64,000 bases of DNA from Elusimicrobia bacterium RIFOXYA2_FULL_47_53 (GTDB lineage: Bacteria > Elusimicrobiota > Endomicrobiia > Endomicrobiales > XYA2-FULL-47-53): positions 1-64,000 of the forward strand of contig MGVE01000003.1 of the NCBI GenBank assembly GCA_001800315.1, written 5' to 3'. A model generated the notes under the pieces. The model was not told the DNA's origin. It saw nothing but the letters and a program-made list of their open reading frames with translations, and did not search any database. Made by a program: the position numbers and the translations under genes. How positions within the stretch are numbered: position 1 is the stretch's first letter; each line of letters begins with the position of its first letter. Shown one piece after another: positions 14,617 to 48,012 of the stretch.

Positions 14617-14780
14617 TGGTAAGCGGTAAGGGGTAGGCGGTAAGTGACAAACCGACAAACGATGCAATTGAAATCCTGTCATCCCCGAGTGCCTCTGTCG
14701 GGGATCACAGTAAAGGTTTGAAGATATTTAATTAATCACTTTGACATCAATGTGGGATATAAGCTGTAAAAAACTTGTTA
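14617..14780. other. radA 3' flank with palindrome
   Basis: No gene. Contains a GGTAAGCGGTAAG-type short direct repeat at 14620-14645 and a perfect 8-bp stem ATCCCCGA/TCGGGGAT (14681-14705). Confidence 0.5.
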
Positions 14781-14808
14781 AGAATAAAGAGAACCGTCCC
14801 CATTAGTT
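14781..14808 (+). repeat. 28-bp repeat, copy A (GAGAACCGTCCCC)
   Basis: Identical over 28 bp to 16637-16664; its core AAAGAGAACCGTCCCC recurs inverted at 16967-16982. Marks the left edge of the accessory island. The sequence type resembles ends left by Y1/REP-associated transposase elements (recalled, not searched). Confidence 0.8.
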
Positions 14809-14810
14809 AT

Positions 14811-15014
14811 ATTGTGCTTGGCGAAGTCGGCTTGGCGGGCGAGGTGCGTTCCATAGCCCAGGCGCAGGAGAGGCTTCTTGAGGCCGAAAAGCTCGGCTTT
14901 GAAAAAGCCATAGTGCCATCGAGCAACTTAAAATCGCTTAAATATAAAGGCAAACTTGAAATAACCGGAGTAGACAGCGTCGCGCACGCGATTGAAATTA
15001 TGAAAAATCAGTGA
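14811..15014 (+). pseudogene. radA C-terminal fragment
   Basis: Translates to about 66 residues (LGEVGLAGEVRSIAQAQERL... to a natural stop) that match the end of the complete RadA at 13234-14616 at about 50 of 65 positions. It begins immediately after repeat copy A, without the rest of radA and without a start of its own. The differences are spread over many codons including silent sites, so it is not a recent duplication of the local gene; a piece of a related radA brought in by transfer fits better. Confidence 0.85.
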
Positions 15015-15031
15015 TAAGGTTTGGTTAAGCA

Positions 15032-16609
15032 ATGTATTTAAAGAGTTTTCGAACGATCATGATAAATATTATAAAAAATTTTGTTGTGTTATTGAAACTA
15101 TTCTCACGGCTAATAAAAAAAATTATCAAATATTTGGCAAAATTAAATAAATTTCTTGGGATTTGCTTGAAATTCCTTGCATATTGTTTGCTATGCACAG
15201 TTTTGGTTTTGTTTGTTTTCTTTTGCTATGACGAATTAAATAATCAAGTTGAAATTAAAATTCAACCGTTTGTAAAAGAATTTGAGCAGAGTGAGAAAGG
15301 ATATTCAAGTGAAATGTTGCGTACGGCGCTATTGAATAACTTAAGAGTAATTGGGGAAATTAAAAATGTTGGTAGGATTGATAGTTCATCTATGGCGGTG
15401 AGTATAATTGCAGATCCTAGAAAACAAACCGTAATATCTACTTTGAGCGAGAGTGTGCCGTTTAAAATTAAAACAGAATATATGAGTATCCCAGTTGATG
15501 AATTATTTGCTTATATAAAGAAATCATCCATTATGGGGTGGCTGCACAGGCATAAAATAGTAAGGAAGAAATATTACTCCGTAAAAGGGTATATTGATTG
15601 GTCCAGTAAAGAAAACGGCTGGATTTTTGAGGGAAATATTGAAGAGTCTGGTAGAGGGAGTCAAACCTTTATTAAGGTTCCGTGGATGAAAAAGGAAAAA
15701 GCGATTTTGGAGATTTCAGAAAATATTATTAGGGTGGTTGATCTTGAGGCATATTGTAATTATTTGGGCGACATTAATAATGGGTGGGCTGGGAATACAA
15801 AATTATTAAAAGAATTGAATAATTTTATATTAATTCATCCTAATAATGCTTTGGCATATTATTATCTCGGATTATGTAATTTGTATGATCGGAAGTATAA
15901 TGAAAGTATTTTGAATTTTGAGAAAGCAATACGATATGATAGTAAGCTATTGGATGCATATGTGGTTTTAGGTCAAGTATACTTTGCCCGAGGTGATATT
16001 GATAAGGCCGAAAAAAGTTTAAGGGGGGCATTGAAAATTAATCGACATAATGCTCCCGCGCTTACGGTGCTTGGTAGAATCTATAATAGAGTTGGTAAAT
16101 TTTCGAAGGCCGAAAAATATCTTCTTCGAGCCGCAAGGGTTAATGAAGGTTTGGTGGAAGGTCATGGCAATTTTGGGGATGAATTTGCGGTGCCATATTA
16201 TCTTTTAGGAATAGTGCGCAGCAATCAAAAGCAGATAGATAAGTCAATTGAAAGTTTTAAAAAAGCAATAAAGTATGATCCTAAGTTTTCTGATGCGTAT
16301 AGGGAATTAGGGGCCATCTATTATATCCATATTAAGGATACTGATACTGCGATAAGTTATTTGGTTGATGCAATTTCGTCGAATAAGAAAAACATTCGGG
16401 CATATAATGACCTTTCTGTTCTATATTTGGGTGTTGGTGATTTGAAGAAAGCGCGGTTTTATGTAAATCAAGTATTACAGCTTGATCCGAAAGATTTAAG
16501 GGCCCATAACATTTTAGCAGAAGTTAATTCGCAGGAAAATGATCGGAACTCAAAAAAGTATAGCGAAAATATATCAACCGCTACAACAATATGGGACGGA
16601 GTTAGATGA
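15032..16609 (+). CDS. membrane-anchored TPR protein, AT-rich
   Basis: 525 residues. A basic N-terminus rich in Ile/Lys, one membrane segment (about residues 41-65), a unique middle region (about 70-265) and a C-terminal array of roughly six TPRs (from NNALAYYYLGLCNLYDRKYN to VLQLDPKDLRAHNILAEVN). The middle part has no fold I recognise. Base composition is far more AT-rich than neighbours and codons such as ATA, TTA and AGG are common, which together with flanking 28-bp repeats points to acquisition. A role in protein-protein interaction at the inner membrane is an inference. Confidence 0.8.
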   Translation: MYLKSFRTIMINIIKNFVVLLKLFSRLIKKIIKYLAKLNKFLGICLKFLAYCLLCTVLVLFVFFCYDELNNQVEIKIQPFVKEFEQSEKGYSSEMLRTALLNNLRVIGEIKNVGRIDSSSMAVSIIADPRKQTVISTLSESVPFKIKTEYMSIPVDELFAYIKKSSIMGWLHRHKIVRKKYYSVKGYIDWSSKENGWIFEGNIEESGRGSQTFIKVPWMKKEKAILEISENIIRVVDLEAYCNYLGDINNGWAGNTKLLKELNNFILIHPNNALAYYYLGLCNLYDRKYNESILNFEKAIRYDSKLLDAYVVLGQVYFARGDIDKAEKSLRGALKINRHNAPALTVLGRIYNRVGKFSKAEKYLLRAARVNEGLVEGHGNFGDEFAVPYYLLGIVRSNQKQIDKSIESFKKAIKYDPKFSDAYRELGAIYYIHIKDTDTAISYLVDAISSNKKNIRAYNDLSVLYLGVGDLKKARFYVNQVLQLDPKDLRAHNILAEVNSQENDRNSKKYSENISTATTIWDGVR

Positions 16610-16636
16610 TAAGGTATTGAAATGGATTAGGTAAAA

Positions 16637-16664
16637 AGAATAAAGAGAACCGTCCCCATTAGTT
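16637..16664 (+). repeat. 28-bp repeat, copy B
   Basis: Exact direct copy of 14781-14808. Together with the inverted copy at 16967-16982 it brackets a 300-bp segment holding a truncated gene. Confidence 0.8.
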
Positions 16665-16701
16665 CTGAGTATGAGTTAGTTAGTGAAGCCTGAAACGGGA
16701 C

Positions 16702-16965
16702 ATGAAAAATTTACAGAGATTATATTTGTCAGTTTTGTGTTTAGTCATATTGTTCTCACGCAATGTAGATGGAACAATTATAGTTGCTCTTGGGCTAAGG
16801 GATGGCATCGTTGTTGCGGCTGATAGTAGAGTAACTTATTCTGTCACAGGTGGCACATTAACTTACTTTTACGATACTGCTGAAAAACTTATCTTAATTG
16901 ATGATTGTGTTGTCGCTCTCTGTGGTTTAATTAGCGTAGAACATGATGATTTGGTAAAAATTTAA
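16702..16965 (+). pseudogene. truncated exported proteasome-like Ntn hydrolase
   Basis: 87 residues. After a signal-like hydrophobic stretch (LYLSVLCLVILF) the sequence DG-TIIVALGLRDGIVVAADSR matches the start of proteasome beta subunits: Thr25 would be the nucleophile after a Gly-Thr cleavage, Asp41 falls at proteasome position 17, and Lys62 in AEKL corresponds to the active-site lysine. Normal domains need about 200 residues; this one stops where the inverted repeat begins, the stop codon TAA lying directly against the repeat. Probably a remnant; it could still be expressed. Confidence 0.7.
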
Positions 16966-16966
16966 C

Positions 16967-16982
16967 GGGGACGGTTCTCTTT
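16967..16982 (-). repeat. inverted copy of the 28-bp repeat core
   Basis: GGGGACGGTTCTCTTT is the reverse complement of the AAAGAGAACCGTCCCC core of copies A and B and forms the right edge of the island. Confidence 0.8.
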
Positions 16983-17066
16983 AACTAATCGCTGTAGTAA
17001 ATATATTAAATTTGCCTGCCAATGAAGTGTTGGCGGGTCCGCCCTGAGGGCGGAAGGGATAAATAC

Positions 17067-18230
17067 ATGTTAAGGTATCTTACGGCAGGTGAAACACACG
17101 GAAAACAATTAACGGTTATTATTGAAGGGATGCCCGCCGGGCTGAAAATTTCCGCGGAAGACATCAATTCGGACCTTGCCCGCAGACAGCACGGTTTCGG
17201 CCGCGGCGAAAGAATGGCAAAAATTGAAAATGACAAAGTTGAAATAGTTTCCGGTGTGCGCCTCGGCGAAACCATGGGCTCGCCTATTACGCTGGTGATA
17301 AAAAATATGGACTGGCAGAACTGGGGCACGCTTATGGGCGCGGAGTTTCATAAGCTTGACGATAAATATGTTCAGACCCGTCCGAGGCCCGGCCATGCCG
17401 ATCTTTCCGGTGTGCTTAAATACAACAGGCGCGACATCCGCGACATCCTTGAACGCGCCTCGGCCAGGGAAACCGCTGCCAGGGTCGCGGCCGGAGCGGT
17501 TGCCAAAAAACTTAATTCCGAGTTCGGTATAACCGTTGTTTCTTTTGTCCGGGAAATCGGAGGCATCAAGGCCGATATCGGCAAGATGTCCGCAAAAGAA
17601 CTTTACGCTGCGGCTGAAAAATCTTTTGTCCGCACGCCAGACAAGGAAGCGGAACAAATAATGATAGAGGCTATTATCCTTGCTAAGGAAAGCGGCGACA
17701 CGCTCGGCGGAGTATTTAGCGTCGTCGCGGAAGGTGTTCCAGCGGGGCTTGGAAGCCACGCGCAATGGGACAGAAAGCTGGACGCCAAAATCGCCATGGC
17801 TCTGATGTCAATTCAGGCTATAAAGGGCGTGGAGTTCGGCTTGGGGTTTGGTTTCAGCGCGAAACCCGGTTCGGGCTCGCATGACGAAATATTCCATACC
17901 AAGGCAGCCGGGTTCTTCAGAAGAACAAACAACGCGGGCGGCATAGAAGGCGGGATGTCTAACGGCGAAAATATTTTTGTTAACTGCGTCATGAAGCCGA
18001 TACCGTCGCTTAAAAAGCCACTGCGCTCGGTGGACATTCATTCAAAGAAAGCCGAGCTTGCCGAAGCTGTCAGAAGCGATGTCTGCGCCGTGCCTGCCGC
18101 CGGAGTCGTGGGCGAGGCGGCTCTGTCATTTGAACTGGCCTGCGCGCTCCAGGAAAAGTTCGGCGGGGATTCTTTAAACGAAATGAAGGTGAATTTTAAG
18201 AATTATATCGGACAGATAAAGAGATATTAA
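17067..18230 (+). CDS. aroC: chorismate synthase
   Basis: Last shikimate-pathway step, EPSP to chorismate with reduced FMN. 387 residues with family signatures GETHGKQLTVIIEGMPAG, RRQHGFGRGERM, RPGHADLSGVLKY and RASARETAARVAAGAVAK. ATG at 17067 chosen from the conserved N-terminus (MLRYLTAGETHG) and GGAAGGGA just upstream; two small hairpins (17019-17034 and 17038-17054) precede it. Three bases before aroK. Confidence 0.96.
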   Translation: MLRYLTAGETHGKQLTVIIEGMPAGLKISAEDINSDLARRQHGFGRGERMAKIENDKVEIVSGVRLGETMGSPITLVIKNMDWQNWGTLMGAEFHKLDDKYVQTRPRPGHADLSGVLKYNRRDIRDILERASARETAARVAAGAVAKKLNSEFGITVVSFVREIGGIKADIGKMSAKELYAAAEKSFVRTPDKEAEQIMIEAIILAKESGDTLGGVFSVVAEGVPAGLGSHAQWDRKLDAKIAMALMSIQAIKGVEFGLGFGFSAKPGSGSHDEIFHTKAAGFFRRTNNAGGIEGGMSNGENIFVNCVMKPIPSLKKPLRSVDIHSKKAELAEAVRSDVCAVPAAGVVGEAALSFELACALQEKFGGDSLNEMKVNFKNYIGQIKRY

Positions 18231-44576: not shown

Positions 44577-46109
44577 ATGCTGGCAAAGGTGATATCGGCG
44601 GCGGTTAACGGAATAGACGCTTATGTGGTAACGGTGGAGATTGATATTTCTCCGGGGTTGCCGACATTTTCAATAGTCGGCTTGCCGGACGCGGCGGTCA
44701 AAGAATCAAAGGATAAGGTTGTTTCGGCCATCAGGAACTCCGGCTTTGATTTTCCGGCCAGGCGTGTTACCGTAAATCTTGCTCCGGGCGACATAAAAAA
44801 AGAAGGGGTTGCTTTTGATCTTCCCATTGCGCTCGGCATATTGACGGCCACCGAACAGCTGAATAAAGAGGCAGTAGACCGCATTTGTTTTGTGGGTGAG
44901 CTTTCACTGGACGGTATTATCCGTCCCGTCAAAGGAGTTTTGCCCATCTCTATCGGCATAAGAAACAGCGGATTTAAATATTTCGTGGTTCCAAAGCAGA
45001 ACGCCAGAGAAGCCTCCGCCGCGCGGGGCGCTGAGATAATACCGTGCGAAAACCTGCGCGGAGTAGTGGATTTTCTCCAGGGCTCGGTTGCCGTAAAACC
45101 GGAGGATTTTTTTGAAGGCATTGAGGAGGAAGTCTGCCTCGGCTCGCTTCAGGAAATAGATTTTGCCGATATCAAGGGTCAGTTTTTCGCCAAAAGGGCG
45201 CTGGAAGTGGCGGCCTGCGGCGAGCACAATGTGATAATGATTGGGCCGCCCGGTTCAGGCAAAACTATGCTTGCCAAGCGGATCGGGAGTATTTTACCTC
45301 CCATGAGCGTGGATGAATCGCTTGAAACCACAAAAATTCACTCCGTCGCGGGATTTCTTCAGAAAGGCGGCGAGCTTGTCACCCAGAGGGTATTCCGCTC
45401 TCCACACCATACGGTTTCCGACGCCGCCCTTATCGGCGGAGGAACCTACCCAAAGCCCGGCGAGGTAAGCCTCGCGCATAACGGCGTGTTGTTTTTAGAC
45501 GAACTGCCCGAGTTTCACAGGGATGTGCTTGAAGTGCTGCGCCAGCCTCTTGAGGACCACTGCGTCACAATAGCAAGAGCCAAACACACGCTGATCTTTC
45601 CTGCCTCTTTCATGCTTGTCGCCGCCATGAATCCCTGCCCCTGCGGCAGTTACGGACATCCCGAAAAGGAGTGCCTCTGTACGCCCTATCAGATAAAAAA
45701 ATACCGCTCAAAAATATCGGGCCCGCTTATGGACAGGATAGACATTCATCTTGAGGTGCCGGCCCTTAAAATTTCGGAGCTATCGGCCGATGAATGCATA
45801 GCCGAAACCTCGGCGACCGTAAGGAAAAGAGTGCAGTCGGCCAGAGGCCGCCAGAGAGAAAGGTTTGCCGGCACGGGCATACGCTCCAATTCCAGGATGA
45901 ACTCAAGGCAGGTTCGGAAGTTTTGCGCGATAAATAAGGAAAGCAAGGAGCTTATCGCCGGCGCGGTAAAAAAACTCGGCCTGTCCGCCAGAGCCTACGA
46001 CAAGATATTGAAAGTCAGCCGCACCATAGCCGATCTTGAGAACTCGGAAAACATTGAAACCGAGCATGTCGCCGAAGCGGTGAACTATCGCTCCATGGAC
46101 CGTTTTTAA
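44577..46109 (+). CDS. comM: YifB/ComM family Mg-chelatase-like ATPase
   Basis: 510 residues: N-terminal Lon-protease-like domain, AAA+ core with Walker A GPPGSGKTMLAKR, LFLDELPEF, and the C-terminal Mg_chelatase_C domain. In transformable bacteria ComM is a branch-migration helicase acting after DprA/RecA; dprA lies 4 kb downstream. Good AGGGGAGGG site. Confidence 0.93.
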   Translation: MLAKVISAAVNGIDAYVVTVEIDISPGLPTFSIVGLPDAAVKESKDKVVSAIRNSGFDFPARRVTVNLAPGDIKKEGVAFDLPIALGILTATEQLNKEAVDRICFVGELSLDGIIRPVKGVLPISIGIRNSGFKYFVVPKQNAREASAARGAEIIPCENLRGVVDFLQGSVAVKPEDFFEGIEEEVCLGSLQEIDFADIKGQFFAKRALEVAACGEHNVIMIGPPGSGKTMLAKRIGSILPPMSVDESLETTKIHSVAGFLQKGGELVTQRVFRSPHHTVSDAALIGGGTYPKPGEVSLAHNGVLFLDELPEFHRDVLEVLRQPLEDHCVTIARAKHTLIFPASFMLVAAMNPCPCGSYGHPEKECLCTPYQIKKYRSKISGPLMDRIDIHLEVPALKISELSADECIAETSATVRKRVQSARGRQRERFAGTGIRSNSRMNSRQVRKFCAINKESKELIAGAVKKLGLSARAYDKILKVSRTIADLENSENIETEHVAEAVNYRSMDRF

Positions 46110-46996: not shown

Positions 46997-47695
46997 ATGG
47001 ATACCATTTCTAATCAAATTAATAAACTATTTTCCGCAGAGCTTCAATTTCGCTTAGCCTCTGCTGTTAGATTGGCAGTAACGGAGGAAGAACAACCGCT
47101 TGATTTACCTAAACAGTGGACTTACGGAAGACACACGGTTAAATATAACGAAGTTGCAATTAGAAAAGATCAAGCGGGTTTTGCTGCTCTGTGTTTACAG
47201 CGGTCGGCAACCTACTTGATGGCCGTAGCAATCAAAGATGCAATTAAAGCCATAATAACAGACCCCAAGAATCATAAAGATTTAAATATCAGGAATTCAT
47301 ACCAGATAGCTAGACTAATTCGCAATGCTTTTGCGCATAGCCCTTTTCATCCTATCTGGTCAATCGATGAAGATTGTCGTGACAAGATTTTTGAGGTAAA
47401 AGACATTATTATTTTGAACACAAAGGGACTTGATAGAACTTCTTTTGATTGGAGACATTATGGCGGACCATTGGCAATTCTCAAACTATGCCAGTTTGTG
47501 AGATTTAAAATATTGGAAGACAAAAATAGAAGACCGGAAGAAAGGGCAATGCCAGAACCAAAAAATAATTATATACAGTTTGGGGATTTAATTCTTAAAA
47601 AAATTGATACCATTCCTAAAGGTGCAAAGCGCATAAAAGTAAAAAAGTCTTCTGATGGAAGCATTGATTTGGGAAGGGGATACTTTATTAGGTAA
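46997..47695 (+). CDS. hypothetical protein with HEPN-type RNxxxH motif
   Basis: 232 residues, mostly helical, AT-rich compared with the surroundings. The segment QIARLIRNAFAHSPF carries R109-N-x-x-x-H114, the R-x4-H signature of HEPN RNases used in toxin and defence systems. No second domain is apparent; a basic C-terminal end (KKIDTIPKGAKRIKVKKSS). A minus-strand XRE-type fragment lies just after it. Assignment to HEPN is from a short motif only. Confidence 0.6.
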   Translation: MDTISNQINKLFSAELQFRLASAVRLAVTEEEQPLDLPKQWTYGRHTVKYNEVAIRKDQAGFAALCLQRSATYLMAVAIKDAIKAIITDPKNHKDLNIRNSYQIARLIRNAFAHSPFHPIWSIDEDCRDKIFEVKDIIILNTKGLDRTSFDWRHYGGPLAILKLCQFVRFKILEDKNRRPEERAMPEPKNNYIQFGDLILKKIDTIPKGAKRIKVKKSSDGSIDLGRGYFIR

Positions 47696-47721
47696 AGATC
47701 ATAAGAAATAGCGATAATGTC

Positions 47722-47892
47722 CTAATGCGAGTTTTTTAAATCAATGGAATTGAAAACCCCGTTCAATTTATTTAACAGTATTTTTGAAGGCTTATGTTCG
47801 CCCCGTTCCAACTTAGCAACGGTTGTTTCATCAACCAGAAGCAGTTCATCCAGTTTCTCCTGGCTAAGGCACGGAAAGCTTGTGGTGGAATA
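47722..47892 (-). pseudogene. XRE-family helix-turn-helix fragment
   Basis: Reading the minus strand, about 56 codons end in a natural stop at 47722. The C-terminal part SQEKLDELLLVDETTVAKLE followed by RGEHKPSK is a typical XRE/HTH_3 recognition region. Upstream the frame closes with a stop (TGA, complement 47893-47895) and there is no start codon, so the N-terminus is lost. It is convergent with the HEPN-motif gene. The plus-strand open frame over the same bases (47744-47986) has no such likeness. Confidence 0.65.
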
Positions 47893-48012
47893 TCAGTTTT
47901 TCTCTGAAATCGCTAAAATCCGTGCAATAAGGCCGTTTTTAGCCTCATTTTTAGACGAGGTTGACAAAGAGGGAATAATAAATTAGAATTATTGCGTATC
48001 GTCGGCCGTTTC

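Follow-up and report, generated by a model that had tools for sequence, protein, structure and literature searches.

Three copies of a short repeat lie between the housekeeping genes radA and aroC of Elusimicrobia bacterium RIFOXYA2_FULL_47_53, and we consider it probable that they are solitary terminal inverted repeats (TIRs) of the TIRYT type that were spread in trans and now stand in, or at the edges of, a foreign mosaic of about 2.4 kb. The window examined here is the whole stretch of 64,000 nucleotides that was analysed (contig MGVE01000003.1, positions 1-64,000; GCA_001800315.1), and the genome from which it derives (G000) comprises 2.41 Mb in 20 contigs. The region bearing the three copies (Table 1) is a patchwork of foreign DNA. 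The feature is real and ordinary in kind, since the dispersed terminal repeats belong to a mobile repeat family that has already been described. What merits attention is that a repeat pair has been identified as TIRYT-type ends in an uncultured lineage that branches deeply, and that these ends stand beside foreign genes that are truncated.

Table 1. Genes and repeat copies in and around the radA-aroC junction (window coordinates)
Feature	Position	Strand	Basis or remark
Resident radA, intact, 460 aa	13234..14616	+	ORF; domains; groups with G001 in the RadA tree (84/83)
Repeat copy A	14780..14808	-	Minus-strand reading AACTAAT, GGGGACGGTTCTCTTT, ATTCTT; TIR-like core
Second radA 3′ end, 5′-truncated, ~64 homologous codons	14814..15014	+	Domains; dS/dN against resident radA
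TPR protein ORF, 525 aa, AT-rich	15032..16609	+	ORF; domains
Repeat copy B	16636..16664	-	Same as A across 29 bp
Proteasome/HslV-like Ntn-hydrolase gene, first 87 codons, stopping where copy C starts	16702..16965	+	ORF; domains
Repeat copy C, reversed relative to A and B	16967..16982	+	TTAAC, GGGGACGGTTCTCTTT, AACTAAT
aroC	17067..18230	+	Neighbours radA in G001-G004 and G007, which are relatives

Copies A and B form a direct repeat (AAGAATAAAGAGAACCGTCCCCATTAGTT) that is exact, as originally predicted, and at 29 bp is one base longer than the 28 bp then given. No further copy was found in the window at three or fewer mismatches, and none was expected from shuffles of the window. The inverted copy of the 16-bp core begins exactly where it had been predicted; copies B and C are 301 nt apart, and the inverted repeat has 21-nt arms that are 95% complementary. 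In an alignment of 11 repeat copies, GGGGACGGTTCT.TTTA is invariant and is mostly preceded by TAAT. The bases AAT stand immediately 5′ of the core in most of the copies listed, including all nine of a distant phylum-mate (G340), under a search pattern that made no such demand. No stem-loop was found in the repeats, whose single-strand folding was no better than that of shuffled sequences. Searches of viral contigs found no copy of the repeat, and searching the literature for its letters returned unrelated papers only. Copy A and the radA fragment share a reading frame (...KRTVPISYIVLGE...), which stays open over 83 codons (window 14774-15014). The spacer 3′ of resident radA also holds a lone hairpin, TCATCCCCGA...TCGGGGAT (window 14679-14705), that possibly represents another dispersed repeat family.

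The core occurs at seven places in the genome, four of which lie outside the window. Two of the four are the ends of one element and two are solitary copies near the 3′ ends of genes. The element ends are on contig C20, where core copies at 44838-44853 and 45532-45547 stand 694 bp apart as a perfect inverted pair and enclose an intact gene for a 220-aa Y1_Tnp protein. The TIRs of this element (C20:44838-45547) are GGGGACGGTTCTATTT and AAATAGAACCGTCCCC, matching at 16 of 16 positions. Because the core is inverted around a Y1 gene here, GGGGAC...GTCCCC mark where this small element has its outer tips, and its single-strand end reads GGGGACGGTTCTNTTT. Its protein scores 68 bits against Y1_Tnp (cut-off 23) and contains HVH and YIELNPVRA, corresponding to the HUH motif and the conserved tyrosine region. 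The best NCBIfam match, at 67.4 bits, is to the REP-associated tyrosine transposases, below the REP_Tyr_transpos cut-off of 80, and no C-terminal HTH was found in this protein, which is the one that shares the repeat of the window. One solitary copy lies on C8, 8 nt past the stop codon that ends an unrelated TPR gene. The other, on C14, is at the 3′ end of a gene for a nucleotidyltransferase, and a second, degenerate copy lies about 50 bp from it.

There are three Y1 transposase genes in this genome, on C11 (L016), C14 (L210) and C20 (L209), each with its own GGGG-headed TIRs. Those on C11 (GGGGACGCTCTTAACTAATTAACT) match at 24 of 24 positions, and those on C14 (TGGGGTCAGGTCTTTA) span 36 nt at 83% identity. 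The C11 protein has a C-terminal Bac_DnaA_C domain (36.2 bits; cut-off 31.5), and the C14 protein has a weak C-terminal match to HTH_23 (20.5 bits, under the cut-off of 24.6). Directly beside or between the repeat copies on C14 (L210 3385-4432) are the nucleotidyltransferase gene and a small partner ORF, an arrangement resembling a toxin-antitoxin pair; a nucleotidyltransferase gene and a small ORF are arranged in the same way at repeat copies in the distant genome G340 (L195 580-1359, contig C47).

No transposase had been expected at the locus itself, and indeed no trace of a Y1 transposase was found in the 64-kb window. The accompanying proposal of mobilization in trans has gained substance, in that an intact Y1 transposase of the cognate type, with the same terminal repeat, is present on C20, and we regard trans mobilization of the repeats themselves as plausible. 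The core nonetheless carries CTTT in the window versus ATTT in the C20 element and GTTT on C8, such that the cognate transposase of the window copies may be another, absent one. A TIRYT-type element would consist of a small Y1/HUH tyrosine transposase with GGGG-headed TIRs, akin to RAYT/REP systems, and the most likely route is that an enzyme of this kind would have acted in trans on DNA in single-stranded form and spread copies next to TAAT-like sites.

The site at which these copies are found is open to foreign DNA. In five relatives (G001-G004 and G007), aroC directly follows radA, with a gap of 26-138 bp in the first four and the genes close together in G007, which indicates that about 2.4 kb was inserted here, at a tolerant site. 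A further relative, G005, has a different foreign gene of 364 aa at this junction (C40; L070 4841-6365), without these repeats. By comparison of gene orders, therefore, the radA-aroC junction is an insertion-tolerant site shared by G005, and it is through this junction that the foreign mosaic would have entered. By eye, the G005 product resembles a DUF1016/PDDEXK nuclease. Relatives with these genes at the junction but no repeats would have spoken against the original prediction; the relatives compared lack both.

Domain and ORF analyses agree with the predicted content of the two blocks, namely a radA tail plus an AT-rich TPR gene, and a truncated proteasome-like gene. The GC content is 0.335 for the TPR gene and 0.362 for the Ntn fragment versus 0.483 for the radA fragment (window, 0.488), and given this contrast the insert is probably mosaic, with two origins or more. 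For the first 254 aa of the TPR protein, no homologue was found in 341 genomes of the phylum, nor among plasmids or viral contigs. We considered a phage or plasmid source for this gene, for which searches gave no match, and a role as a known defence gene, for which there were just weak TPR matches. The 87-aa ORF aligns with positions 4-53 only of the 189 in the Pfam proteasome model, at 20.5 bits (cut-off 22.4), and is HslV-like in PHROGs. A GT at residues 24-25 aligns, weakly, with the mature N-terminus of proteasome beta subunits, and the ORF thus looks like the catalytic front part of an Ntn hydrolase, severed where copy C starts. A second AT-rich patch lies elsewhere in the window (47001-48000; GC 0.37), with a 232-aa ORF amid other genes.

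Relative to the intact C20 element, the tips of copies A and B point right and that of C points left; A and B are a like-oriented pair, and a left-end...right-end order is absent from the plus strand. The radA and Ntn fragments each adjoin a repeat copy on its tip side. This looks as if an element had landed in each gene and the remainder had been lost, the alternative being recombination between scattered copies. Both gene fragments may accordingly have been cut at the repeat copies, whether by insertion, deletion or recombination.

The radA fragment shares 72-85% DNA identity with resident radA, and with dS at 1.63 and dN at 0.21 it diverged under selection inside a working radA; these values rule out a recent duplicate of the resident gene. 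Among 84 genomes of the order, no donor above 76% protein identity was found, the resident gene (77%) excepted. In the RadA tree, the resident protein groups with that of the same-family genome G001 (84/83), whereas the fragment falls among the non-f6 RadA proteins of the order. Some of the nearest RadA matches, taken alone, would suggest Omnitrophota as the lineage. The strongest rival to trans-spread TIRs as an account of this part of the locus is that the fragment arose by recombination at radA, for example through Campbell-type integration or allele replacement by related DNA, with the repeats arriving later or providing short homology. The fragment stands directly behind resident radA, as a scar would, and its composition is like that of the resident gene (GC 0.483, GC3 0.554). 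Its placement with the non-f6 proteins fits such an event, although the tree of the tail does not resolve (84/69), and the tail of resident radA has a pN of 0.237 against G001, above every other radA segment compared with that genome. However, this route leaves it to chance that the truncation lies beside a repeat copy, and we hold it to be a serious possibility but the less probable one.

Other members of the phylum offer a broader view of how solitary TIRs are distributed. The exact core is rare, being present in five of 341 phylum genomes. G340 has nine exact copies and about 19 under a relaxed pattern, mostly after gene ends, and its genus-mate G339 has four under that pattern. Many of the G340 copies are in the sense direction and a few bases from a stop codon, as would be expected if the target were TAAT-like and overlapped TAA stops. 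On contig C46 of the same genome (L193 1-1521), an ORF with a predicted signal peptide begins MKNRTVPIIL..., of which RTVPII is the translated end repeat, so that this gene seems to take its beginning from the repeat. No empty site for a lone TIR could be read from the single orthologous spacer examined (that of G339 against a G340 repeat), which had diverged too far.

The copies in G340 bear most directly on a second rival, in which A and B would be the boundaries of a cassette. In single-stranded DNA, a Y1 transposase would nick immediately after TAAT, before each of two like-oriented repeats, and free a unit comprising one repeat and its cargo, here the radA 3′ end and the TPR gene; insertion of this unit beside another copy would place one gene between direct repeats of 29 bp. 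In keeping with this route, A and B are identical past the core on both flanks. Copies in G340 also form a same-orientation series with about one gene between them (689, 1068, 1205, 1050 and 350 bp), and six neighbouring pairs lie less than 2 kb apart versus 0.3 expected (0 of 20,000 simulations gave six). Finally, an 18-bp unit without cargo, GGGGACGGTTCTAATAAT, is present in tandem on C47. Insertion after stop codons within operons, however, suffices to produce a same-orientation series. Moreover, a zinc-ribbon gene that lies 3′ of gyrB beside a repeat in G340 has a similar counterpart 3′ of gyrB in G336, where there is no exact repeat copy. Genes and repeats thus need not move jointly, and this comparison, made at one locus only, suggests that TIRs and adjoining genes move independently. 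Given that gyrA apparently lies directly 3′ of gyrB in G339, this place is no more than a variable site.

G339 (C36; L202) and G340 (C68; L201) share, at 100% identity, a 3.7-kb locus that bears three copies in like orientation, while the gyrB loci of the two genomes differ by about 20%. This identity reflects either recent transfer or cross-contamination of bins, and it is uninformative on movement. Overall, we find the A-B cassette improbable, and more improbable still the general version in which TIRYT ends bound small gene cassettes, so that a repeat and the gene following it move as a unit and Y1 transposases shuffle accessory genes or pieces of genes with no need of a composite transposon. 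Should the grouping of like-oriented copies around single genes stem from the transposase and not from insertion behind stop codons, it would be relevant to the poorly understood reshaping of genomes by REP and TIR transposases.

The least credible alternative, which the original prediction had favoured and which we consider very unlikely, is that B and C delimit a MITE-like short inverted-repeat element that captured part of the proteasome-like gene: the copies are inverted with a gene piece enclosed, and a transposase with this end occurs in the genome, but their tips point inward, opposite to those of the C20 element, as between two neighbouring elements and not outward round a captured segment, which places the Ntn fragment outside any element; furthermore, a BLAST search of the insert against the window recovered no second B-C block (only the insert itself, the radA tail and A/B), and the layout recurs at none of the seven core sites in the genome.

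Solitary, probably trans-spread TIRs invite comparison with three known systems. The C20 protein resembles the IS200/IS605 family in its Y1 HUH transposase fold (Pfam Y1_Tnp; NCBIfam IS200 at a low score), but classical members lack terminal inverted repeats (PMC2817692), whereas the repeats here are perfect terminal inverted repeats without stem-loops. RAYT/REP systems, or REPtrons (Nunvar 2010, PMC2817692; Bertels and Rainey 2011, PMC3116915), offer a nearer parallel in that a single-copy Y1 gene lies between two inverted repeats, further copies of which are scattered in the genome, mostly 3′ of genes. The repeats described here nevertheless lack a GTAG or GTGG head and a hairpin, have TAAT or AAT before the core, and are low in copy number, and we have rejected their classification as classical REPs. 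Spread by a Y1 transposase in trans has been proposed for both REP and TIR families (PMC3116915, PMC3733652).

The nearest relatives are the TIRYTs, or TIRtrons, which are TIR-associated tyrosine transposases with dispersed TIR copies and the motif GGGGWSAS, common to some but not all of their TIRs (Di Nocera et al. 2013, PMC3733652). Most TIRYTs fall in subclass 2.1, with a C-terminal Bac_DnaA_C, HTH_23 or HTH_28 domain (Quentin et al. 2018, PMC6006769). Against this background, the C20 protein is short and lacks an HTH, and the window copies differ in adjoining truncated foreign genes. The motif read from C20 and the window (GGGGACGG) is off at position 7, as is that from C11 (GGGGACGC), while that from C14 (GGGGTCAG) fits. 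The likenesses include a Y1_Tnp gene with an HUH motif between GGGG-headed TIRs, as on C20, TIRs that are also dispersed singly or in groups (the window, C8, C14 and the exact copies in G340), and the C-terminal domains of the C11 and, weakly, the C14 proteins. Although imperfect in one motif position and in the missing HTH, the C20 element is, on these sequence features, a close fit to the TIRYT group.
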